In this document: positions 421 to 41,684 of the stretch, piece by piece
Numbering within the stretch: the stretch's first letter is position 1
Layout of the letters: each line of letters starts with the position of its first letter
Assembly (NCBI GenBank): GCA_002731275.1
Contig: PCBK01000091.1
Location: 1 to 50,244 of the forward strand
Origin: Deltaproteobacteria bacterium
GTDB lineage: Bacteria > Myxococcota_C > UBA6777
Direction of reading: 5' to 3'
DNA length: 50,244 nt
The notes under the pieces: generated by a model
The model's input: the letters and a program-made list of their open reading frames with translations, nothing else
Told to the model about the DNA's origin: nothing
Database searches by the model: none
Translations under genes and position numbers: made by a program

Positions 421-3400
421 ATGAGCCGTACGAAAGAAACGCTTCACATCCCCGATCACCTCAGGGGAAATGACAAACAAAAAGTTCCAGCTTACATCGA
501 AAATTCACGCCCAAAGAGCATTTTGCGGCTGTTGTTTCGATTGACTGTCTTCTTTGGAATGACTGGGTTTGTCATGGGGTCTTGTGGTGGCATGGCGATT
601 TTCGCTCGCTATGCGACAGGAATTCCCCATCTCAATAGCCTTAACCAGTATCGTCCACCCCTCCCGACTGTTGTTTACTCCCATGGCGAAGATGTCATCG
701 GCGAGTTTTCCGCAGAGCGGCGGGTCTTGGTCCCTCTCGAAAAGATCCCCAAAAAACTTCTGTATGCGTTTGTTGCTGCTGAAGATGATCGCTTCTTCAA
801 GCATGGTGGTGTCGATCCCCTTGGGATTATGCGCGCTGTCGTGAAGAACTTGAAAGCCGGACGGATCAAAGCAGGTGGTTCGACTCTGACACAGCAGGTC
901 GCCAAGACCTTTCTGCTTGATCGACTCGTGATCAAAATGCGCGATGGTCTCTGTCGAAGTGATAAGCAATGTGGTTGGCGCCAGCGATGTAAGACTCGTG
1001 CAGGTCGTCCATATGGCCGGTGTGTCAAACGATCATTTCGTGCTTGCTCCAAGCAAGTGACGGTCATCTACCAAGGGAAACCCACAAAAGTCTACAGAGG
1101 ATACACCACCATGTGTGATCCTCATGAGGTCTGTCGACCACAATGTAAAGATAAGGTCGAAAACCAAGCCGGACTCTGTCCCCAGTGGATGTGTGTGCCT
1201 GCTGCGCCCAAACCCACTTGTCAAACGAGCCAAAGCTGTCGTTTTGGTGAACGTTGTACGGATGGTGAATGTAAGCCGAGTTTTCAGGCGCAAATTGCTG
1301 ACATTTTGGATAAGCTCGCGCAAAAAGGTGCTGAGGTCCATCGCGTCAAAGCCCCCGAAAAGATCTTGTCTGAGCTGCGAGGCGACTTCAAACGCAAGAC
1401 GCAAAAATACGTCGAGATCAACGCAAGACAAGCCGCGCGTATCAACAAACAAAAAATTGAACGACTCCCTGGCGTTCGCGTTGTCTACCGATTTGCTGAG
1501 AAGAGCTTTAAGCGGAAAATTCGCGAAGCTATCCTCGCCACACAGCTCGAACGCAAGTTTACAAAAGGACAGATCTTGTGGTTGTACCTGAACCACATCT
1601 ACCTCGGACACCATGCCCACGGTGTACAGGCTGCCGCGCAAAACTACTTTGGTAAAAATGTTTGGGAGCTGACGCTCGCAGAGTGTGCGCTCCTCGCTGG
1701 ACTCCCCAAGAAGCCAAGCAGGGCCGATCCATACCGTTATCCCGATCGTGCTCGAACTCGTATGACTTATGTTCTCAAGCGTATGCACGAGATGGGGTAC
1801 ATCTCCAAAGCGGAAAGAGAACAAGCGCTCAACGAGCCCATCAAGACAAAAGCCATCCCCAACCTGTTTTTTGAAAAGACACCTTACTTTACCGAAGAAG
1901 TCCGCAAGCAATTGCTCTCGACATACGGAAAAGAAGGTTTGCTCAAAGGTGGGATGGAGGTCTACACATCGATCGATACAGAGAAGCAAATGCTCGGACG
2001 TCGCGCGCTTCGAAAGGGGCTGAAGAACCTCGACATCCGCCAAGGGTATCGTGGCCCACTTGGTGTGATCCCCAAACAACATTGGAGCAAAGCGCTCGAC
2101 AAAGCAGCGAAATTCTATGGACCCGGTCCCCTCAAACCCAAAATGATTTATGCAGGCCTCGTGACACGCATCAATCGACGCAAACAACAAGTGACTGTGA
2201 AGGTTGGACATCACATCGGTATTCTTCCTCTTGCGGGGATGCGATGGGCACGTAAACCCAACCCGTACAGAAGTTACAAAGGAAACATGATCCGTCGCAT
2301 CGGAAAGACCTTGCGTCCTGGCTATTGGATTCTTGTCGAACCTGTAAAGAGTTGGAAAGATCTTCGTACACGTTCAAGAGTCTATGATCGGACGATTCCT
2401 CGCCGTGGTCTGTTGTTCCGCCTGCGTCAGCATCCAAAAGTAGAAGGGGCGTTGGTTTCGATCGATCCACACAGCGGCTACATCGAGACATTGATCGGTG
2501 GGTATGCTTACAAAAGAAGCCAGTTTAACCGCGCTTTGTATGCTTGTCGTCAACCTGGATCATCGTTTAAGCCAATCGTCTACACAACAGCGCTTGAGAA
2601 TGGATACACGCGCAAGGTGAGAGGGAAAGATGTCCATGAGCCGATCACACCCGGTTCTATCTTGCAAGATACACCTCTCGTATACGACTCGGGAACGGAT
2701 CCAACCGCAGCTCGATACAAACCTAGCAACTATTCAGGTCGGTATGAAGGGGATATGTTGCTACGTACTGCGTTGATGAAGTCCAAAAACATCCCCTCTA
2801 TCCGTTTGATGATGAAGGTGACGATGGACAAGGTGATCGAGTACGCTCGCAAATTTGGGTTGACGACAGAGCTGCGCAAAGAGCTTGGGCTTGCCCTCGG
2901 TCAATCTTGTGCCAAACCCTGGGAGATGGCGATGTTTTACGCGATGCTGGCGCGTGGCGGACTCAAAGTCAATCCCGTCTTTATCAAGATGGTCATCAAC
3001 AGAGATGGCGAGGTGGTCGAAGATCAGCGTTCATACGATGATCCTTCACTGAGTCCAGAGTCCCAAATTAACCGCTTTGAGGATGCGTTGTTGCGTGAGG
3101 AGAAGCGTCTCATCAGCCGTCAAACTGCGTATCTGATCACGACGATCCTTCGACAAGTTGTGCTGTATGGTACTGGTGTAGCGGTACGTAAGCTCAAAAA
3201 ACCTGCAGCAGGGAAAACGGGGACCACCAACGATTCGTTTGACGTCTGGTTTACTGGTTTTACACCCCTCCATGCGACAGTCGCTTGGCTTGGGTTCGAT
3301 AAAAACGAGAGCCCACTTGGGAGTTGGGAGACGGGTGGGCAGACTGCCGCGCCTGTTTGGGTCGAGTACATGAAGGGTGCCACAAAAGGTCTCAAATGGA

Positions 3401-3579
3401 AGGAGTTTCAGGCGCCTCCTGGGATCGTCTGGAGGCGGATTGATCCGAAGACAGGAAAACTCGCAAACGTCGATACTTCTGGTGCGATTAGGTTGCCGTT
3501 TAAGGCTGGAACGGAGCCCAAAGATCGCGTCAATAAACGTGGTCAAGTGAAGGCCGACGATTTCTACAAAGAGATGTAG
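421..3579 (+). CDS. pbp1A: Class A penicillin-binding protein (PBP1A-like) with Cys-rich insertion
   Basis: Bifunctional peptidoglycan synthase, anchored in the inner membrane by a segment at about residues 35-62. The GT51 glycosyltransferase motifs are EDDRFF (121-126, catalytic Glu121), GGSTLTQQ (152-159) and ATQLERKFTK (373-382). The transpeptidase has SSFK (714-717, nucleophile Ser714), SKN (788-790) and KTG (932-934). An OB-like segment at about 570-660 lies between them, as in PBP1A proteins. At 1052 residues it is longer than usual. Most of the excess is an insertion of roughly 195 residues (about 167-362) between GT51 motifs 2 and 3. This carries 14 cysteines (178-284) and then a charged linker. 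The motif at 267-284, CQTSQSCRFGERCTDGEC, has the C-x5-C-x5-C-x4-C spacing of the lipoproteins at 28389-32774. A weak CTACA/TGTAG stem overlaps the stop and is followed by eight T (3584-3591), possibly a terminator. Confidence 0.93.
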   Translation: MSRTKETLHIPDHLRGNDKQKVPAYIENSRPKSILRLLFRLTVFFGMTGFVMGSCGGMAIFARYATGIPHLNSLNQYRPPLPTVVYSHGEDVIGEFSAERRVLVPLEKIPKKLLYAFVAAEDDRFFKHGGVDPLGIMRAVVKNLKAGRIKAGGSTLTQQVAKTFLLDRLVIKMRDGLCRSDKQCGWRQRCKTRAGRPYGRCVKRSFRACSKQVTVIYQGKPTKVYRGYTTMCDPHEVCRPQCKDKVENQAGLCPQWMCVPAAPKPTCQTSQSCRFGERCTDGECKPSFQAQIADILDKLAQKGAEVHRVKAPEKILSELRGDFKRKTQKYVEINARQAARINKQKIERLPGVRVVYRFAEKSFKRKIREAILATQLERKFTKGQILWLYLNHIYLGHHAHGVQAAAQNYFGKNVWELTLAECALLAGLPKKPSRADPYRYPDRARTRMTYVLKRMHEMGYISKAEREQALNEPIKTKAIPNLFFEKTPYFTEEVRKQLLSTYGKEGLLKGGMEVYTSIDTEKQMLGRRALRKGLKNLDIRQGYRGPLGVIPKQHWSKALDKAAKFYGPGPLKPKMIYAGLVTRINRRKQQVTVKVGHHIGILPLAGMRWARKPNPYRSYKGNMIRRIGKTLRPGYWILVEPVKSWKDLRTRSRVYDRTIPRRGLLFRLRQHPKVEGALVSIDPHSGYIETLIGGYAYKRSQFNRALYACRQPGSSFKPIVYTTALENGYTRKVRGKDVHEPITPGSILQDTPLVYDSGTDPTAARYKPSNYSGRYEGDMLLRTALMKSKNIPSIRLMMKVTMDKVIEYARKFGLTTELRKELGLALGQSCAKPWEMAMFYAMLARGGLKVNPVFIKMVINRDGEVVEDQRSYDDPSLSPESQINRFEDALLREEKRLISRQTAYLITTILRQVVLYGTGVAVRKLKKPAAGKTGTTNDSFDVWFTGFTPLHATVAWLGFDKNESPLGSWETGGQTAAPVWVEYMKGATKGLKWKEFQAPPGIVWRRIDPKTGKLANVDTSGAIRLPFKAGTEPKDRVNKRGQVKADDFYKEM

Positions 3580-30242: not shown

Positions 30243-30317
30243 TGACTGTTTCCTCATTCACATGGTCGATGAATGGGAGTCTGTAACGGATTGTCGGAAA
30301 AAAAGGACGATTTTCCA

Positions 30318-32774
30318 ATGAGGTGCTTCTTCCTGTCTTCTCTCAAACAACGCACACAAAAAGGCTGGCTGCGATTTGTTCTCTGCATGTTATGCGTAGG
30401 GTTGTTGCTTTTTGTTGAGGTTGGCTGTGGTGGAGAGGTCACACCAACAGGACCATGTCGCGATTGTCCTGAGAGGTGTGTGCAAAGTGAAGATGGTTCT
30501 TTTCGCTGTGTTGAGTGCTTGAAAAATGCGCACTGTCATGAGCCCGAACGTCCAACTCGCGAGTGTACGCAAGCGTATCGTTGTCAGTGCGGTAGTGATG
30601 CTGATTGTGCCAACGGCCGAAAGTGTAGCAAAAGTGGGGCGTGTGTAGAGTGTCTTCGTAGCGCGGATTGCACCAATCCCTTACAACCCATTTGCTTGGA
30701 TGGCTATTGTCTCGCATGTGAACCCAATAAGGAACGTGCTTGTGCGCCAGAGAATGTGGTGATCTGCGCGATGGGGATCCAACGTTGTGAGGCTGGAACT
30801 TGGGGGCGTTGTCGTGATGCAAAGGTCTGTAGCGCCAAAGAGAGCTGTCGTGAGGGGGCATGTGAGTGTATTGCGCCGCGCGTTAGGTGTGGAAGTGAGT
30901 GTGTCCTTTTGGAAGCATCTACGACAGATTGTGGTGGATGTGGGAATGCCTGCAAAACAGGTGAGTTTTGCGCGAGTGGGCGATGTGTTCGTGACTGTCC
31001 TCCTGTGACTCCTGAGCGATGTGGTGATGTTTGTGTCCGACTGCAATCCTCTGAAGCTCATTGTGGCCGCTGTGGGAATGCTTGTGAAGGCGGGCAATAT
31101 TGCGCTGATGGTGTATGCCGTTGTCCCCATGGACAGCAGCTCTGTGCTGGACGTTGCGTGTGGGTTGAGACGGAGCGATCGCACTGTGGAGCGTGCGGGA
31201 AGATGTGTCAGGATGGTCAGGTGTGTGCTGCAGGTCGGTGTGTGACTTCTTGTCCGTCCAAGACGCCTGATGTTTGTTATGGTGGCTGTTTTGACACGCA
31301 AAATCATCCCGGCCATTGTGGTCGGTGTGGGGATGCTTGTGCACCGGGACAGGTGTGCCTCCAAGGGAGCTGTCATTGCCCACAAGGCCAACTCTTTTGT
31401 CAGGGCAAGTGTGTTGATGTTGCGCTTCACCCGGAGCATTGCGGTGCGTGCGGAAAGACATGTCAGGATGGTCAGCAGTGTGCAGCGGGCCAATGTGTAG
31501 CTTCTTGCCCGTCCAAGACACCTGATGTTTGTTATGGTGGCTGTGTTTCGTTACAAACACATTCTCAACATTGCGGAAAGTGTGGGCATGTTTGCAAAGA
31601 ACAGGAGAGCTGTCTTGCTGGTGTATGCCGTACTTCGCAGACGACGTGTGGTGTTGGGCGGCCTTGTGCTGGTGCGTTACTTTGCGTCAATGGAGTATGT
31701 GTTCCTCCTGAGTGTGATGCAGCCAATCCGTGTCCAACTGGAAAAGAATGTCAGTCGGGCCGTTGTGTCGAAAAAACACCGACATGTGATGTGGCGAATC
31801 CATGTCCGACAGGCCAAACATGTGTTGCCGGAGAATGTGTCGTACAGGGAGGTTGTCAGAGTCGAGCTGATTGTGTTTCTGGGCAGGTTTGTCAGGGGGG
31901 ACGTTGTCGGGCGTGTGTTGATGATGGCGAGTGTCGTTCCGATGAGCGTTGCCTCTCGGGGGCGTGTCGCCTCGCAAAGGCTACAGGAGAGACCTGTCTG
32001 CAAGATGTTGAGTGTCAGGTTGGGTTGTCTTGTATTGCGGATTTGACGAGGAAGAAAGCTTGTTGGAAGCCATGTGATCCTATCAAGTCATCGACTGGAT
32101 GTATCGCGCCTCTCGTGTGTGGTTTGTCCCAAGATAAACGAAATGGCGGGTGTATGCCACAGCGAAGTGGTGGACTCTCCGCTGGAGCTTCGTGTCAACC
32201 TGGACTTTCACAGTGTCGAACGGAGCTGTTGTGTACGGATCTTGGAAAGGGGTTGGGGAACCGTTGCTATCAACTATGTGACGAGCGTGCCTTGACCTGT
32301 GCTGGCGGGGCGAGTTGTCTCTCTGTCAACCATCATCCTGTTGGCGTTTGTGAGATCAAGTCCGCCAAAAAAGGTGTTGGGGAATCTTGTACAGCCCAAT
32401 CACAATGTCAGAGCGGCTTGTATTGCGCAGGGACGCCTGGAAGTGCGAAGTGTGTTCAACCTTGTGATCCGCTGCAATCTGTTTGTCAGGCGCCAGAGGT
32501 CTGCGACATCATCGTTGATTACGGGAACAAAGTGTTCCAAGCGTCCTTTTGTGGACCTCTTATCTCTGGATTAAGCGAAGGGGCGAAGTGTACTTATACA
32601 AGCTCCACATCCAACTGCAATACCGATTTGTTTTGCTTTCCTGACCTGCAACAGCCCCCTTATGGGATTTGTGCCAGGGTCTGCGAACCAGGGGGCGCGC
32701 CGTGTCCTGGTGGAAAAGTTTGTATTCTTTCACCCATCACCAAAAATGGTAAGTATATCTATGGGTGTATCTAA
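30318..32774 (+). CDS. Cys-rich lipoprotein with Stig1-like repeats, paralogue of the preceding gene
   Basis: About 818 residues from the ATG at 30318 (AAGGA upstream). The lipobox is EVGC. The centre has six units of about 40 residues with HCGxCG, for example HCGACGKMCQDGQVCAAGRC. This pattern resembles Stig1-type repeats seen in myxobacterial proteins. Flanking modules keep the C-x5-C-x5-C-x4-C style. The C-terminal 270 residues match the end of the preceding lipoprotein closely: DKRNGGCMPQRSG, SVNHHPVGVCE, CGPLISGLSEGAKC, ending Gly-Cys-Ile. The pair is therefore a tandem duplication whose N-terminal parts diverged or were exchanged. Surface or secreted role likely. Confidence 0.85.
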   Translation: MRCFFLSSLKQRTQKGWLRFVLCMLCVGLLLFVEVGCGGEVTPTGPCRDCPERCVQSEDGSFRCVECLKNAHCHEPERPTRECTQAYRCQCGSDADCANGRKCSKSGACVECLRSADCTNPLQPICLDGYCLACEPNKERACAPENVVICAMGIQRCEAGTWGRCRDAKVCSAKESCREGACECIAPRVRCGSECVLLEASTTDCGGCGNACKTGEFCASGRCVRDCPPVTPERCGDVCVRLQSSEAHCGRCGNACEGGQYCADGVCRCPHGQQLCAGRCVWVETERSHCGACGKMCQDGQVCAAGRCVTSCPSKTPDVCYGGCFDTQNHPGHCGRCGDACAPGQVCLQGSCHCPQGQLFCQGKCVDVALHPEHCGACGKTCQDGQQCAAGQCVASCPSKTPDVCYGGCVSLQTHSQHCGKCGHVCKEQESCLAGVCRTSQTTCGVGRPCAGALLCVNGVCVPPECDAANPCPTGKECQSGRCVEKTPTCDVANPCPTGQTCVAGECVVQGGCQSRADCVSGQVCQGGRCRACVDDGECRSDERCLSGACRLAKATGETCLQDVECQVGLSCIADLTRKKACWKPCDPIKSSTGCIAPLVCGLSQDKRNGGCMPQRSGGLSAGASCQPGLSQCRTELLCTDLGKGLGNRCYQLCDERALTCAGGASCLSVNHHPVGVCEIKSAKKGVGESCTAQSQCQSGLYCAGTPGSAKCVQPCDPLQSVCQAPEVCDIIVDYGNKVFQASFCGPLISGLSEGAKCTYTSSTSNCNTDLFCFPDLQQPPYGICARVCEPGGAPCPGGKVCILSPITKNGKYIYGCI
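31206..31550. repeat. Internal 255-bp repeat in the Stig1-like gene
   Basis: TGTCAGGATGGTCAG occurs at 31206 and again at 31461. It is followed in both copies by almost the same 85 bp, coding for CPSKTPDVCYGGC. The period is 255 bp (85 codons), so repeat units were duplicated in phase and recently. Confidence 0.8.
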
Positions 32775-32971
32775 CATCTTTGGAGATCATTGCTACCTCC
32801 TTCGTTGAATCCATCCATGATCTGTAGTATACATCTTCTGCAATTTTTCTCATTGTGCCTCAGAGTTGCACGTGTTATATCCGAGAGGGGAGTTGTCAGG
32901 CTGCTTGGGTTTTTGTGTTGGTGGTCTGGTCCTTTCTGTGAGCGCTTCATCAAGGGAAAAGGAAGAAGTCA

Positions 32972-35900
32972 ATGCAAGATAGGCTCATTGGCAAAGTATT
33001 GGGTCAATATCGTATCGAAACGCTGCTTGGAACGGGGACGTTTGGTAATGTCTACCATGCTAGGCATCTGAGGTTAGGTCGAGCGTTTGCGATCAAGGTA
33101 CCTCATCCCCATCACCAATTTCGGGAAGAGTACATCACCCGCTTTACAAGGGAAGCGAAGTCCCTTGCGGCGTTACATCATCCCAATATTGTCCAAATGG
33201 TCGACTTTGTTGAATCCCCCGAAGAAGGGGCCTATATGGTCATGGAGTGGGTTGAGGGAGAGACCCTGAGCGACTACATCAAACGCAAAGGTTCTCTGTC
33301 GCCCGACGTGACGCTGCGCATTTTCGAACAGCTTCTAGACGCGCTCTCCCAAGCACATGAGCTTGGGATCGTTCACCGCGACATCAAACCCGGTAACATC
33401 TTTGTTCTCGAAGTCGGAGAGCACCCCGTTGTAAAGATCTTGGACTTTGGTATCGCTTTGCTCGATGAGGGAGACGAAGAACGTCATACCAAACAAGGGA
33501 CGATCCTTGGCAGCATCCGTTACATGGCCCCCGAGCAAGTCCGAGGAGATATTACAGAGGTCGATGCGCGTAGTGATTTGTATGCTTGTGCCCTCATCCT
33601 TGCAGAATGCCTTACAGGTCAAGTGGTTTACCAAGGACGCTCAACGGCTGTTGTCGTCGACAAACTTCACGAACCTCTACCAACTCTCTCTTCTCTATCG
33701 ACATTTCACGCCTCTCCTGCCTTGGAGGCATTTTTCGCAAAGGGCGCAGCACGTGACTCGTCCCAACGATATAACTCTGCCGTGGAGTTTCTCCAAGCAC
33801 TCAAACCTGTCCTTGGTGAGGGGGAGGGCCAAAAAACATCTGCGAAGGTTGATTTTATTGAAGAGATTGACCTTTTCGATGACTCCGATGACTCTCCCAC
33901 GCGTCTCGACGGCGAGGGGCTTGATGATGACATCGTGCAATCATCTGAATACTACGACGAAGCATCTGGGGGATTCAAACATGCCTTTGAGGAAAGGCCT
34001 TCTTATTCGTCTATCCCTGTTGCCTCGCACTCTTCAGCGTCTATCCCTGTTGCCTCATCGTCTTCAGCATCTATTCCTGCGGCTTCACCATCCTCTGTGA
34101 GCCTTCCTTCTGCCAAGGAGGTCCTGGCACAGATGGTCGATGCCAAAAAGAAGGAGCTTGGCTACCAGGATACTGTAGGGATGTCTGAGGCAAGAGAGGC
34201 GCCAAGGCCTCGGCCGCAAAGCAGAGAGCGCAAGCAGGGAAGCGGAGATTCTATGGCGTCTGTCGCTGATCAGCTGATCAGCCAGAACTTCGGTGGCAAA
34301 GTGGCTCCTGATCGCTCGGACTATAAAGCTGTTCTTCCCCAATTTGGCGATAGTTTTACGGTCCCCAAAAGAGAGGCTGAACCCAAAAAAGGGGCAAAAC
34401 AGCAAGGTGCTAGCGCGATTGGCCGCTGGGCAGCTGGAGGCGTCGTAGGGATCATCTTGTTGTTCGCGTTCTCATACGGGGTGTATAAGTTGGTACTTGG
34501 CGGGCAAAAGGACAATGGGCAGCAACAAGGTCCAGGTATACTCAAGCCAGACGATCGAGATAAACGTTTTACCAATATCCGATTGATCCCACTCCACAAA
34601 AAGGGCATCGTGACCTCTGAGACGGGACTCGTCCTTTCTGGTGTGGCCCCAGAAGGTTTCGGTAAGCCTCTTGTCTCGGCATTTGGAGCGAGTGGAGGGT
34701 ATTTTGCTGTGGGCTTTTGCAAAGGCATGCAATCTTGGGATAAGAAGCGCCTCGACTGTGGTGAAGGAGCGCTGTATGGGTTCCAAATTAAGCCGAGACT
34801 TGGCGGGATTACATGGCTTCGAATCTTGAGAAAGTGGGACACCACAAAGTGGCCACCGTTGATGCAAGACCTGCTCAAAATAGGAATCGCACCCTCCGGA
34901 GGGTTTTTGCTGTACGGTATGGAGTCCGTGAAAAAAGAAGGCAAAAAAGAATCTTTTCAATGGTTTGTGCAGCGTTTTGATGAAAAGGGGGTTCGTGTCT
35001 GGAAGAAGCGTTTTGGCAGGTTTCGTGCTTCGATCTTGTCTTGGAGAGGAAAGTCGTACAGGACCTCAACCCCTGCAGCCTCAAGAGTGGAGCTTTCACC
35101 GATACAGCTCGTGATTGGAGAAAGTGGAAAGATTTACATACTCGGACGCTTTCGCGATGCATTTACCTTTCAGGGGAATACCTTTGCTGCGCAGGGAAAA
35201 CGTCACTCCGATCTCTTCGTGCTCTCTCTTGCCTCCGATGGGACGGATCTGTGGGCCAAGACGTATGGTGGCGCGCACAGAGAGATTCCAGCTGTTATAG
35301 AGCTTGGGAAGCGTGGGCAGGTATACATCGCAGGGACATTTCGCCGTCGTGCGCGCTTTGGTGAGCATTCACTGAAAGCTCGTGGACGTGGGAGTCTCTT
35401 TCTAGCGGAGCTTTCGCCTGGAGGTGCTGGAAAGGTGTTATGGGCTCGTTCATATCGAGCACAGATTGTCACTCGTCATGCCCACCCTGTGCTTGTCATA
35501 CGCTCATTGGTGGGTGGTGATCTTCTTCTTGCGGGCGGATTTCGTAAGCGATTGCAATTTGGAACCAAGAAACTCGAAGTCTCCACAGGCACAAAGAGTT
35601 TTGTCGCCCGTTTCAACCGCCTCGGATACGTGCGTTGGTTACTTGGAGGTGCCGGTAATTTCGACACCATTTCTTTGCTACAGATCTACTCAAAGCGTTC
35701 CTTTTTTGTCGCAGGCACGTTCTATGGTCACGCGAGGTTCGGGAAGACGGATATGGCTTCTTGGGGAGAGAAGGCATTTTTTGTGGCGCGCGTCAAAGAT
35801 TTGGAAGATCACGCTCGTTGGGAATGGGTGCAGATGGCAGGTGCCTTTCGAGGTCATCACCTCAGCGACATGTGGGCTTCAGAAAAAGGAAAGCTCTGGG

Positions 35901-36337
35901 TGGCTGGAGAATACAGTGGGCAGGGGTACTTCGCAAAAGATCTCTTGAGTGGAAGCAAGAAAGCACCAAGGCTCTTTTTGTGGGATCTTGGTCACTCCTT
36001 TCCATTCCAAGATCAAAAGCAACTTTTGCGTGCCCCACTTGTCGAGAACGATGGGGTTTTGTGTCCTCGGCATGGGACCTTTGCTCGTGTCTTTCCCTAC
36101 TACCCCAAGCAGCTACACATCTACTCGGAGTTTGGTGAGCTTCCACACCGGCCTGTTGGATTTTGTATCCCTGCTGCGGCAAAGAAAATCCGTATTCGCC
36201 AAAGGGGGTTTTTGGGTTGCACATTCCGACACACGATGAAGAGCGACGAGATGCAAGTCTTTTTACGGCACCGGAACGCCAAAATTGCTTTTGGGACCAA
36301 GTCGTCTTGTCACGTCATAAATGGAAACGGAAACTGA
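32972..36337 (+). CDS. Receptor-like Ser/Thr protein kinase with propeller-like extracytoplasmic domain
   Basis: A 1121-residue PknB-type kinase. The kinase domain covers about 13-280: glycine loop GTGTFGNVY (20-28), Lys42, catalytic HRDIKPGN (135-142), DFG (158-160) and APE (186-188). A low-complexity juxtamembrane region includes an ASIPVASSSS repeat (about 346-378). One membrane segment lies at about 487-510. The outer part (about 530-1040) repeats strings such as VYIAGTFRRRARFGEHSL and LLAGGFRKRLQFGTKKLE, a beta-propeller-like pattern common in myxobacterial surface proteins. The final 80 residues carry several cysteines. It could sense an outside ligand through the propeller. GAAGAAG precedes the ATG. 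Confidence 0.9.
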   Translation: MQDRLIGKVLGQYRIETLLGTGTFGNVYHARHLRLGRAFAIKVPHPHHQFREEYITRFTREAKSLAALHHPNIVQMVDFVESPEEGAYMVMEWVEGETLSDYIKRKGSLSPDVTLRIFEQLLDALSQAHELGIVHRDIKPGNIFVLEVGEHPVVKILDFGIALLDEGDEERHTKQGTILGSIRYMAPEQVRGDITEVDARSDLYACALILAECLTGQVVYQGRSTAVVVDKLHEPLPTLSSLSTFHASPALEAFFAKGAARDSSQRYNSAVEFLQALKPVLGEGEGQKTSAKVDFIEEIDLFDDSDDSPTRLDGEGLDDDIVQSSEYYDEASGGFKHAFEERPSYSSIPVASHSSASIPVASSSSASIPAASPSSVSLPSAKEVLAQMVDAKKKELGYQDTVGMSEAREAPRPRPQSRERKQGSGDSMASVADQLISQNFGGKVAPDRSDYKAVLPQFGDSFTVPKREAEPKKGAKQQGASAIGRWAAGGVVGIILLFAFSYGVYKLVLGGQKDNGQQQGPGILKPDDRDKRFTNIRLIPLHKKGIVTSETGLVLSGVAPEGFGKPLVSAFGASGGYFAVGFCKGMQSWDKKRLDCGEGALYGFQIKPRLGGITWLRILRKWDTTKWPPLMQDLLKIGIAPSGGFLLYGMESVKKEGKKESFQWFVQRFDEKGVRVWKKRFGRFRASILSWRGKSYRTSTPAASRVELSPIQLVIGESGKIYILGRFRDAFTFQGNTFAAQGKRHSDLFVLSLASDGTDLWAKTYGGAHREIPAVIELGKRGQVYIAGTFRRRARFGEHSLKARGRGSLFLAELSPGGAGKVLWARSYRAQIVTRHAHPVLVIRSLVGGDLLLAGGFRKRLQFGTKKLEVSTGTKSFVARFNRLGYVRWLLGGAGNFDTISLLQIYSKRSFFVAGTFYGHARFGKTDMASWGEKAFFVARVKDLEDHARWEWVQMAGAFRGHHLSDMWASEKGKLWVAGEYSGQGYFAKDLLSGSKKAPRLFLWDLGHSFPFQDQKQLLRAPLVENDGVLCPRHGTFARVFPYYPKQLHIYSEFGELPHRPVGFCIPAAAKKIRIRQRGFLGCTFRHTMKSDEMQVFLRHRNAKIAFGTKSSCHVINGNGN
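34010..34099. repeat. Three 30-bp tandem repeats in the kinase gene
   Basis: Units start at 34010, 34040 and 34070, each beginning TCTATCCCTGT or TCTATTCCTGC. They encode repeated SIPVAS-type decapeptides in the linker before the membrane segment; copy number may vary between strains. Confidence 0.85.
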
Positions 36338-39192: not shown

Positions 39193-41613
39193 TTATTTTC
39201 TGAGGAGGATATGGATTGAGGAGGTACGTTTGGAGTTGATCTTGACGTAAAGTTCTTGTGACTTGTACCCTTTTTTGGAGATGACGAGGTGATGAAGCCC
39301 TTTGGGGAGCAGCAACAGGCTGGTTGGGCACAGTACGCGGGTCTTACTGCCTATCAACACACGTGCATTTTTCGGAAGACATGAGATGTTGAGATAGCCA
39401 ATATCTTTGAGGTTCTTTGGCTGGGTTGTCGTTTTCGTTTTGGGGATGGAGGACAAAGGCCTTTGGGGGGCGGTGCGCTTCTTTTTGGGTTGGCTGATCG
39501 CGAACACGATCAAAAAGAGTAACAGCCCAATGATCCCAAACAGAATAAACTGAAGTCGATTAAGCGATTGTTCGCCGGGCGTTTCACGTGGGGCTGGGAG
39601 CGTTTGAAGTGCTGTGCGAGAACGCTTTGAGGGGTCTTGGAAGACGAGGTTGGAGCCTGTGGTTCTGTGTGTTGGTTGGAAGACTTGGTGTTTTTCGCTG
39701 TGGGAAAATGGTGCAAAAGGGAGATGGTTCTCGAGACTGTTGGGGGGACGTGATGTCGCCGTCGCAAAGTGTGTGTGTTGGTAGCTCTTTGGGTCGTCTG
39801 TTTGGAGACGTGCGAGCATTCTTTTCTCATTGGCAGGGCGACGAACGACCTCTTGTTTTCTGAGTTGATCTTCTCGGATGGATGGAAGTTGTAGAAAGGG
39901 AGAATCTGGATCATCGTCGTGCAATGAGAGGTCGACCGCGTTGGATTCTTGTGCTGGAGGCTGCATGTTGATCTCATCGGGATCTGGAAGCGCCTGGATT
40001 GCGACGAGCTGTTGGGTAATTTGGCGGGGAGATATTTTGTCGTTTTCGTGGTCTTTTGAAAATTGTTCTTTGAGGCTGCTTGGTTTGTGTTCGGGCGCCA
40101 CAAAGTTATGGCTCAGGAAGGGGATGTCGTCATCCTCTGCGTTTTCAGAGAGCTCGTTGAGGGCTTCTGTGAGATAGACTTGCACTTCGAGCATTGTGCT
40201 AGGACGTTCATCGGCCTGCTTGGCGAGTCCGACTTCCATGAGTTTGAGCAGGGCGCTGGGGTAGTGGATGTCGGGTCGGACGTCCGTCAGTTTTGGAGGG
40301 GGAGAGTAGACATGTCTCATCGCGTATTGGTAGGGGCTGTCGGCGCGAAAGACGCTTTTACCTGTGAGGGACTCAAAGAGGAGGATACACAGAGAGTAGA
40401 TATCCGAACGGGGATCGAGAGGGAAGCCCATCGCTTGTTCGGGAGATAGGTAACGTGGTGTACCCATCGTCATACCGACTTTTGTGATCTTGGAGGGTTC
40501 CTTTTGGTCTTTGGCGATCCCAAAATCGAGGACTTTGATACCATCGACCTGTCCTGGACCTCCGAGGATAAAGATGTTATCGGGTTTGAGATCCCTGTGG
40601 ATAATGCCTTCTTCGTGGGCGTGGTGCATGGCTTCACATACGACGACAAAGAGACGGCATATCGTCGGCAGAATGGAGCCTCTCTCGTATTTTGAGAGGA
40701 AGGTGTCGAGATCACACCCGCTGAGCAGCTCCATGATCAGGTAAAAGCCAAAGGGCAACTCAAAACCAAATTTGTATACATCGATGATGTTAGGGTGTTT
40801 GAGCCTACGTAAGATTTGGGCTTCGTGGTAGAAGCGTTGGACTGTCTCCTCATTGAGCATGGTTTGGGCGCGGAGGAGTTTGATCGCGATAGGCTCATCA
40901 TTTGGGACATGAAGACCTTCGTAAACAAGCCCCATCCCACCCTCACCGAGTCGTTTGATCAACTTCCACTGGTTATCGATCAGCTTTCCTGCGAGGGGGT
41001 CATTTGAGGGTTTGTTGAGCAGGTAATCACAGTGGGAACAGACGATCGCTTCAGGAGGCCGGGGATACCCACAGCTTGGACAAAAACCTTCTCTGTGTAG
41101 ATCGATTTGTTGTTTGGCATCAGAGAGTTCTTGTGCTTGGGAAGGCGAGTACTTGGAGGTGCGTAGGTAGCGGCCGTAGTGGTAGCGGATCGCTTGAACG
41201 AGGGCGTCACGGTGTGTAAGGCTGACGACAAGTCCTTCACATTGTGTTTGGAAAATGATTTGGTTTTCGAGCTCTTCGGAGAGCATGTCCAGGCTCACGA
41301 CCTCGACTTTTTTTCCTGCGTCGACTCTCCGAATGGGAAGGAGGGTGCGGTTGAGCGCGACTTGGTAGGGGATACCCAAGAATAGATCTTCTTGGGTTTC
41401 CATGGACATTAATTGCTTGAGATCGTAATATGTCAGCGCGTTGAATGCAGCGTATTGTCGTTGATATTGCTCCTCTGAGAGGGCGCCAAGCCCGATGAGA
41501 ATATCACCAAGGTGTCCGCCATTTTCTTCGCGGATTTCTTCTGCTTTTTGCAGGTCTTTTGGGCTGATGAGACCTTCTTCAAGAAGGTTTTGTTCGATAG
41601 AGCCTGAAGTCAT
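39193..41613 (-). CDS. Ser/Thr protein kinase with MshEN-like, zinc-ribbon and PEGA-like domains
   Basis: About 806 residues; an in-frame GTG sits one codon before the chosen ATG, and neither has a strong binding site. Numbering counts that GTG as 1. Residues 5-155 resemble the N-terminal domain of type II secretion ATPases (GspE_N/MshEN): LLEEGLISPKDLQKAEEI, GGHLGDILIGLGALSEEQY. MshEN domains in other proteins bind cyclic di-GMP. Cys179, 182, 193 and 196 form a zinc ribbon. The kinase domain (about 216-480) has GEGGMGLVY, Lys246, HRDLKPDN (340-347) and DFG (364-366). A membrane segment lies near 686-708, and the C-terminal PEGA-like domain (about 740-807) would be periplasmic. Cyclic di-GMP control is an inference. 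Confidence 0.88.
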   Translation of the reverse strand: MTSGSIEQNLLEEGLISPKDLQKAEEIREENGGHLGDILIGLGALSEEQYQRQYAAFNALTYYDLKQLMSMETQEDLFLGIPYQVALNRTLLPIRRVDAGKKVEVVSLDMLSEELENQIIFQTQCEGLVVSLTHRDALVQAIRYHYGRYLRTSKYSPSQAQELSDAKQQIDLHREGFCPSCGYPRPPEAIVCSHCDYLLNKPSNDPLAGKLIDNQWKLIKRLGEGGMGLVYEGLHVPNDEPIAIKLLRAQTMLNEETVQRFYHEAQILRRLKHPNIIDVYKFGFELPFGFYLIMELLSGCDLDTFLSKYERGSILPTICRLFVVVCEAMHHAHEEGIIHRDLKPDNIFILGGPGQVDGIKVLDFGIAKDQKEPSKITKVGMTMGTPRYLSPEQAMGFPLDPRSDIYSLCILLFESLTGKSVFRADSPYQYAMRHVYSPPPKLTDVRPDIHYPSALLKLMEVGLAKQADERPSTMLEVQVYLTEALNELSENAEDDDIPFLSHNFVAPEHKPSSLKEQFSKDHENDKISPRQITQQLVAIQALPDPDEINMQPPAQESNAVDLSLHDDDPDSPFLQLPSIREDQLRKQEVVRRPANEKRMLARLQTDDPKSYQHTHFATATSRPPNSLENHLPFAPFSHSEKHQVFQPTHRTTGSNLVFQDPSKRSRTALQTLPAPRETPGEQSLNRLQFILFGIIGLLLFLIVFAISQPKKKRTAPQRPLSSIPKTKTTTQPKNLKDIGYLNISCLPKNARVLIGSKTRVLCPTSLLLLPKGLHHLVISKKGYKSQELYVKINSKRTSSIHILLRK

Positions 41614-41684
41614 CACTGCTATCTTGCCATCCAGTAGCTATCAAAATGATCAATCATGGTTTGTTCCATGAGTGGGAACATTAT

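Follow-up and report, generated by a model that had tools for sequence, protein, structure and literature searches.

Why a class A PBP should carry a cysteine-rich module inside its glycosyltransferase (GT51) domain was the question raised by the gene that opened the window, the whole stretch of 50,244 nucleotides analysed here, which formed part of the 10.75 Mb assembly G000. The frame of this gene (421-3579, +) was free of stops and frameshifts. In the 1052-residue product, Pfam matched Transgly twice, in separate stretches, and also PCB_OB and Transpeptidase; the NCBIfam model PBP_1a_fam (TIGR02074) gave a score of 564.6 bits against a cut-off of 508.75. A contiguous GT51 domain, which is usual but is not a curated requirement of TIGR02074, was lacking, yet the score still passed, and by this curated score the protein was a complete class A PBP of the PBP1A type. 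As in the PBP1A proteins of TIGR02074, GT51, PCB_OB, and transpeptidase stood in the usual order with all of their motifs. A preliminary description of the DNA had claimed that the motifs of both enzymes were kept, and the sequence and alignments confirmed this: GT51 motifs I-IV and the SSFK and KTGT motifs were all intact.

Position of the insert in the GT51 domain

The insert, of about 195 residues, followed motif II of GT51 and preceded motif III (Table 1). At this place, class A PBPs usually have a short turn, as illustrated by the paralog at G000:C136 (KTFLL-SPQQTY-KRKIREAIL), and the aligned TIGR02074 relatives also had a short turn, whereas the window PBP had the additional residues. 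Fourteen cysteines were found in the 196 residues of the insert, compared with four in the other 856 residues (18 in total). The frame and the five orthologs described below bore out the earlier claim of about 195 residues and 14 cysteines between the GT51 motifs; the stretch that had been taken for motif 3 (ATQLERKFTK), on the other hand, was misplaced, beginning inside the true motif III, RKIREAIL, and running past it. The GC content was 0.505 in the insert and 0.509 in the remaining gene, so the insert bore no mark of recent foreign origin.

Table 1. Features of the PBP gene and its insert (positions in the window)
Feature	Position	Strand	Basis
Class A PBP gene (PBP1A type), 1052 aa, carrying the insert	421..3579	+	Pfam and NCBIfam matches
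N-terminal transmembrane segment (putative, approximate limits)	520..612	+	hydrophobic stretch in the sequence
GT51 motif I, EDDRFFKH, with catalytic Glu	781..804	+	sequence; alignment, largely invariant
GT51 motif II, GGSTLTQQ	874..897	+	sequence; alignment
Inserted module, aa 167-362	919..1506	+	five-ortholog alignment; splits the PF00912 match
Four-Cys repeat A, C178-C201, C-x5-C-x5-C-x10-C, insert residues 12-35	952..1023	+	alignment; weak similarity to Cys repeats of the genome and to TIGR04201
Unique six-Cys segment, C209-C258	1045..1194	+	alignment; no Cys-repeat match
Four-Cys repeat B, C267-C284, C-x5-C-x5-C-x4-C, insert residues 101-118	1219..1272	+	alignment; hhalign 95%; weak DUF7107
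Basic segment, probably alpha/beta, between the Cys part and motif III	1273..1506	+	conservation in five orthologs; low-confidence helix-strand-helix
GT51 motif III, RKIRE	1513..1527	+	sequence; alignment
GT51 motif IV, KGQILWLYLN	1564..1593	+	sequence; alignment
PCB_OB domain	2047..2442	+	Pfam
Transpeptidase domain, motifs SSFK and KTGT	2446..3267	+	Pfam; alignment

Conservation and distribution of the insert

The phylum was sampled with five genomes from one family and three genera, all independently assembled. The insert was found in every one of them, at the same site and in a single open frame. The ortholog inserts were 50-57% identical to the window copy, and their lengths agreed within three residues. 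All 14 cysteines were invariant in the five orthologs, and about 60 columns of the insert were invariant across the three genera. In G001 and G004, the PBP gene was cut by the contig end, with the insert complete in both. In the close pair G002/G004, the cysteine part of the insert and the GT part after it each had a dN/dS of about 0.02; the value for the second segment of the insert was 0.13. In this pair, purifying selection on the cysteine part was as strong as that on the catalytic core. In every other ortholog pair, the synonymous sites were at or close to saturation, and therefore no dN/dS claim was made from them. No conserved gene neighbor of the insert-bearing PBP was found in the available flanks.

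A profile built from the five orthologous inserts was searched against 386 genomes from across the domain, in most cases one genome or a few from each family; 381 of the genomes lay outside the phylum. Full-length matches were confined to the five members of the phylum, and the sole further match, in G001, covered a single cysteine repeat. Outside the clade, the PBP matched the PBP1A of G032 best. The insert profile was also run on 195 genomes from the same phylum as G032; the single weak match (G435, L093) covered the cysteine repeats only. This match lay in a small lipoprotein-like reading frame (L093:1272-1940), in which cysteine repeats preceded what looked by eye like an OmpA/Pal-like end; here, too, such repeats were close to a part that may bind peptidoglycan. 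Searches of viral contigs and plasmids revealed no relatives of the insert, and the other class A PBPs of G000 were without it.

A survey of PF00912 in 56 genomes gave 127 matches, of which ten came from the five orthologs, each split into two halves by the insert; a split of this kind was shown for no other protein surveyed. The domain was whole in nearly all of the other proteins, and the few other partial matches were in short frames or degenerate paralogs. A half-GT51 in a long frame at G047:C87 was not a case of insertion and adjoined a run of N. Among the matches listed from 48 genomes of the G032 phylum, roughly 150, GT51 was contiguous in every case. These results showed that common PBP1A proteins do not have the insert as a loop; the earlier statement that no standard PBP1A with such an insertion was known held among the genomes examined, by both the GT51 survey and the profile searches. 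Among the titles and abstracts that searches of an open-access library retrieved on GT51, insertions, and class A PBPs, none described a GT51 domain with an insert rich in cysteine. The insert belonged to no family tested. Two of the closest relatives outside the clade, the PBP1A of G032 (L013) and that of the Myxococcota MAG L044, had 7-8 more residues in their loop (ISAEGY..TAK), precisely where the insert stands. The loop between motifs II and III thus tolerates growth, and this longer loop was possibly a stepping stone to the insert.

Cysteine repeats and predicted structure

The cysteine part of the insert consisted of two four-cysteine repeats on either side of a segment with six cysteines (C43, C66, C72, C76, C87, and C92 in insert numbering). 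The two C-x5-C-x5-C-xn-C units resembled in style those of Myxo_Cys_RPT (TIGR04201) and DUF7107 (PF23416), but the insert fell below the curated cut-offs of both: TIGR04201 matched the window PBP with 13.5 bits (E 0.062; cut-off 25 bits), and DUF7107 matched the window copy with 14.7 bits (cut-off 24.6 bits). The weak DUF7107 match was present in all five orthologs, with a best E of 0.0099. Cysteine repeats were abundant in G000, with over 20 TIGR04201 matches above the cut-off and more than a hundred weaker ones, and were located in secreted-looking proteins. When a profile of 92 of these repeats was compared with the insert by hhalign, the probability was 95% for repeat B and 63% for repeat A; the middle six-cysteine segment matched nothing, this profile included. 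With the cysteine-repeat HMM, the orthologs scored 7.5-12.1 bits, which overlapped the high end of the scores of fixed-cysteine shuffles (99th percentile, 10.1 bits), so an origin of the insert from local cysteine repeats is suggestive only.

The second half of the insert likewise matched nothing. Its last 78 residues were basic and showed 38-45% identity between genera. They had been described as a charged linker; the charge was confirmed, but the degree of conservation across genera implied that the segment was probably structured and not a mere linker. AlphaFold predicted helix-strand-helix elements there at low confidence. An Inhibitor_I9/ferredoxin-like second half, which had been suspected by eye from 'LPGVR-VYRF', was not supported by any match to the I9 profile. 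The match of the second half to DAHP_snth_FXD (E 0.032) was at chance level, as were the local matches of the insert to Ty1 Gag and ribosomal S6.

The insert modeled alone with AlphaFold had a mean pLDDT of 57.6, with values of 70-80 on the two four-cysteine repeats. When 29 ordinary PBP1A proteins were aligned with the protein, the GT core was mostly at 80-98, and most of the insert scored under 50, with higher values only around repeat B. A Foldseek search of the PDB with the single-sequence model of the insert gave no reliable match. VKOR, an enzyme of extracytoplasmic disulfide formation, was encoded in all five genomes of the phylum. Together with the even number of cysteines, this favors cysteines that are held as disulfides in the insert.

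Other cysteine-rich proteins were also noted in the genome. The window itself encoded a second protein in the cysteine-repeat style of the insert (30273-32771, +); it matched DUF7107 weakly and contained five STIG1-like stretches. Three genes for secreted cysteine-rich proteins (L094:7270-12363, G000:C136) adjoined the second PBP1A gene, which had no insert; by eye, these proteins seemed to have SH3-like parts, and one of them a peptidase-like part.

Possible roles of the insert at the GT51 jaw

The jaw of GT51 enzymes is made up of motifs I-III and the flap; it is conformationally mobile and contacts the membrane, with its base in the membrane (PMC6053601). By the numbering of S. aureus MGT, the flap, the most mobile part, comes after motif I and before motif II (PMC6053601). 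The preliminary description had placed the insertion in a flexible region facing the membrane. The insert does belong to the jaw subdomain, but it occupies the turn between motifs II and III and not the flexible flap loop. The jaw changes shape upon the binding of moenomycin, and in pneumococcal PBP2a, substitutions at the interface between the jaw and the transmembrane segment activate polymerization, a route that has also been proposed for other aPBPs (PMC10746261). The activators of E. coli aPBPs bind accessory domains that are mutually unrelated, OB/ODD and UB2H (PMC10746261).

The insert can be compared with these systems. Like UB2H of E. coli PBP1B and OB/ODD of PBP1A, which act with LpoB and LpoA, respectively, it appeared by analogy to be an extra non-catalytic domain of an aPBP in the periplasm. 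UB2H and OB/ODD are near the interdomain linker (PMC10746261), whereas the insert is inside the GT51 jaw. Also in contrast to the Lpo systems, the window PBP had no UB2H match in Pfam at E up to 1, and canonical LpoA was not found in four of the five genomes of the phylum and was marginal in the fifth. MacP controls polymerization by PBP2a through the jaw and the transmembrane interface (PMC10746261), and a similar control may be proposed for the insert; MacP, however, is a separate membrane protein, whereas the insert is covalently within the jaw. With the mobility and control of the jaw, the activators that use accessory domains, the scarcity of LpoA, and the attachment of the domain at both ends, control or docking is the simplest reading. 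From the sequence comparisons, we infer that the insert could be a built-in regulatory or docking domain of the GT51 jaw, a tentative reading that is the likeliest of those considered, with chances that we put slightly below even. In its favor are the 14 cysteines and about 60 columns that do not vary across three genera, the purifying selection in G002/G004, the split GT51 match of all five orthologs, the absence of the profile elsewhere in the genomes searched, and VKOR in all five genomes.

The PBP1A ortholog of the phylum would have acquired, in the turn that links motifs II and III, a periplasmic domain of about 195 residues, probably assembled in part from the cysteine-repeat modules of secreted proteins in the lineage. 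The domain would stay in the mature enzyme, probably held by disulfides from the VKOR pathway, and would project from the jaw at the membrane surface. A partner, either a protein or a polymer of the envelope, would bind it, and because the domain is anchored at one end to motif II and at the other to motif III, this binding would shift the jaw and thereby change the rate or processivity of glycan polymerization. The preliminary description had likewise suggested that a disulfide module here could dock a surface or periplasmic partner and steer polymerization. A broader proposal, that a disulfide module in the jaw takes a partner from the envelope or surface and gates polymerization independently of Lpo as a third kind of aPBP control, is possible but doubtful. 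Several points count against the regulatory or docking reading. The conservation may reflect only the needs of folding, the model was poor (pLDDT of 70-80 on the repeats and below 50 in much of the rest) and had no confident PDB match, and neither a partner nor a conserved neighbor was found in the available flanks.

The two main rival readings are a jaw extension with binding of its own and a tolerated decoration. Basic surfaces of the jaw have been proposed to gather lipid II (PMC6053601), and the net charge of the insert was +9 to +24 in all five orthologs. The module may extend the jaw and itself bind the membrane, lipid II, or the anionic glycan as it emerges, and in this way determine substrate capture or processivity with no protein partner. 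We regard this as rather unlikely, as the charge differed almost threefold between genera and no known lipid- or glycan-binding family matched the insert. It is unlikely, too, that the insert is decorative, a surface cysteine module in a permissive loop that is kept because its removal harms folding. G000 was full of such repeats and the loop accepts changes in length, as in G032 and L044, in agreement with decoration; the near-equal length and the invariant cysteines in three genera, and a constraint like that of the catalytic core in the sole measurable pair, argue against it. In addition, an in-frame deletion would be simple, yet a clean loss was seen in none of the five genomes. A third alternative is a thiol or metal switch, in which some of the cysteines and invariant His/Glu residues bind metal or sense redox and gate the polymerase. 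The invariant residues C66, H69, E70, C72, and C76 (C-x2-HE-x-C-x3-C) would suit it, but the even number of cysteines, VKOR in every genome, and the likeness to secreted cysteine repeats fit structural disulfides better, and no metal family was above the cut-off on the insert, which makes such a switch very improbable. Finally, an artefact (a frameshift or misassembly) or a removable element (an intein or an intron) might be suspected because a large insert within a catalytic domain is unusual, and the preliminary description had named a frameshift or assembly error joining unrelated frames around 919-1506 as grounds for refutation. This was refuted by the same in-frame insert at the same point in five independent assemblies and by its coding-type constraint, with no Hint splicing domain in the insert (Pfam, E up to 10) and no intron in an Rfam scan.

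It is an open question how class A PBPs are activated, and control is suspected to act at the jaw. A conserved domain wired between two catalytic motifs of the jaw would make control through the jaw testable. The GT51 fold accommodated a large insert near the active site, and such inserts could potentially be used for trapping states of the jaw.

Very large divergent GT51 proteins, with frames of about 1000-1550 residues, were also observed in all five genomes of the phylum. Two of them were read, at G000:C58:9288-9680 (L108:2242-6474) and G000:C173:31045-31422 (L107:163-4713). Both had several apparent membrane segments, an altered motif II (GGSTPALQ), a weak or unrecognized transpeptidase part, and a long basic tail, and they look like degenerate paralogs of class A PBPs. 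Elsewhere in the window, two large eukaryotic-type Ser/Thr kinases were encoded at 32942-36334 (+) and 39196-41637 (-), one of which showed weak matches to MshEN and PEGA.
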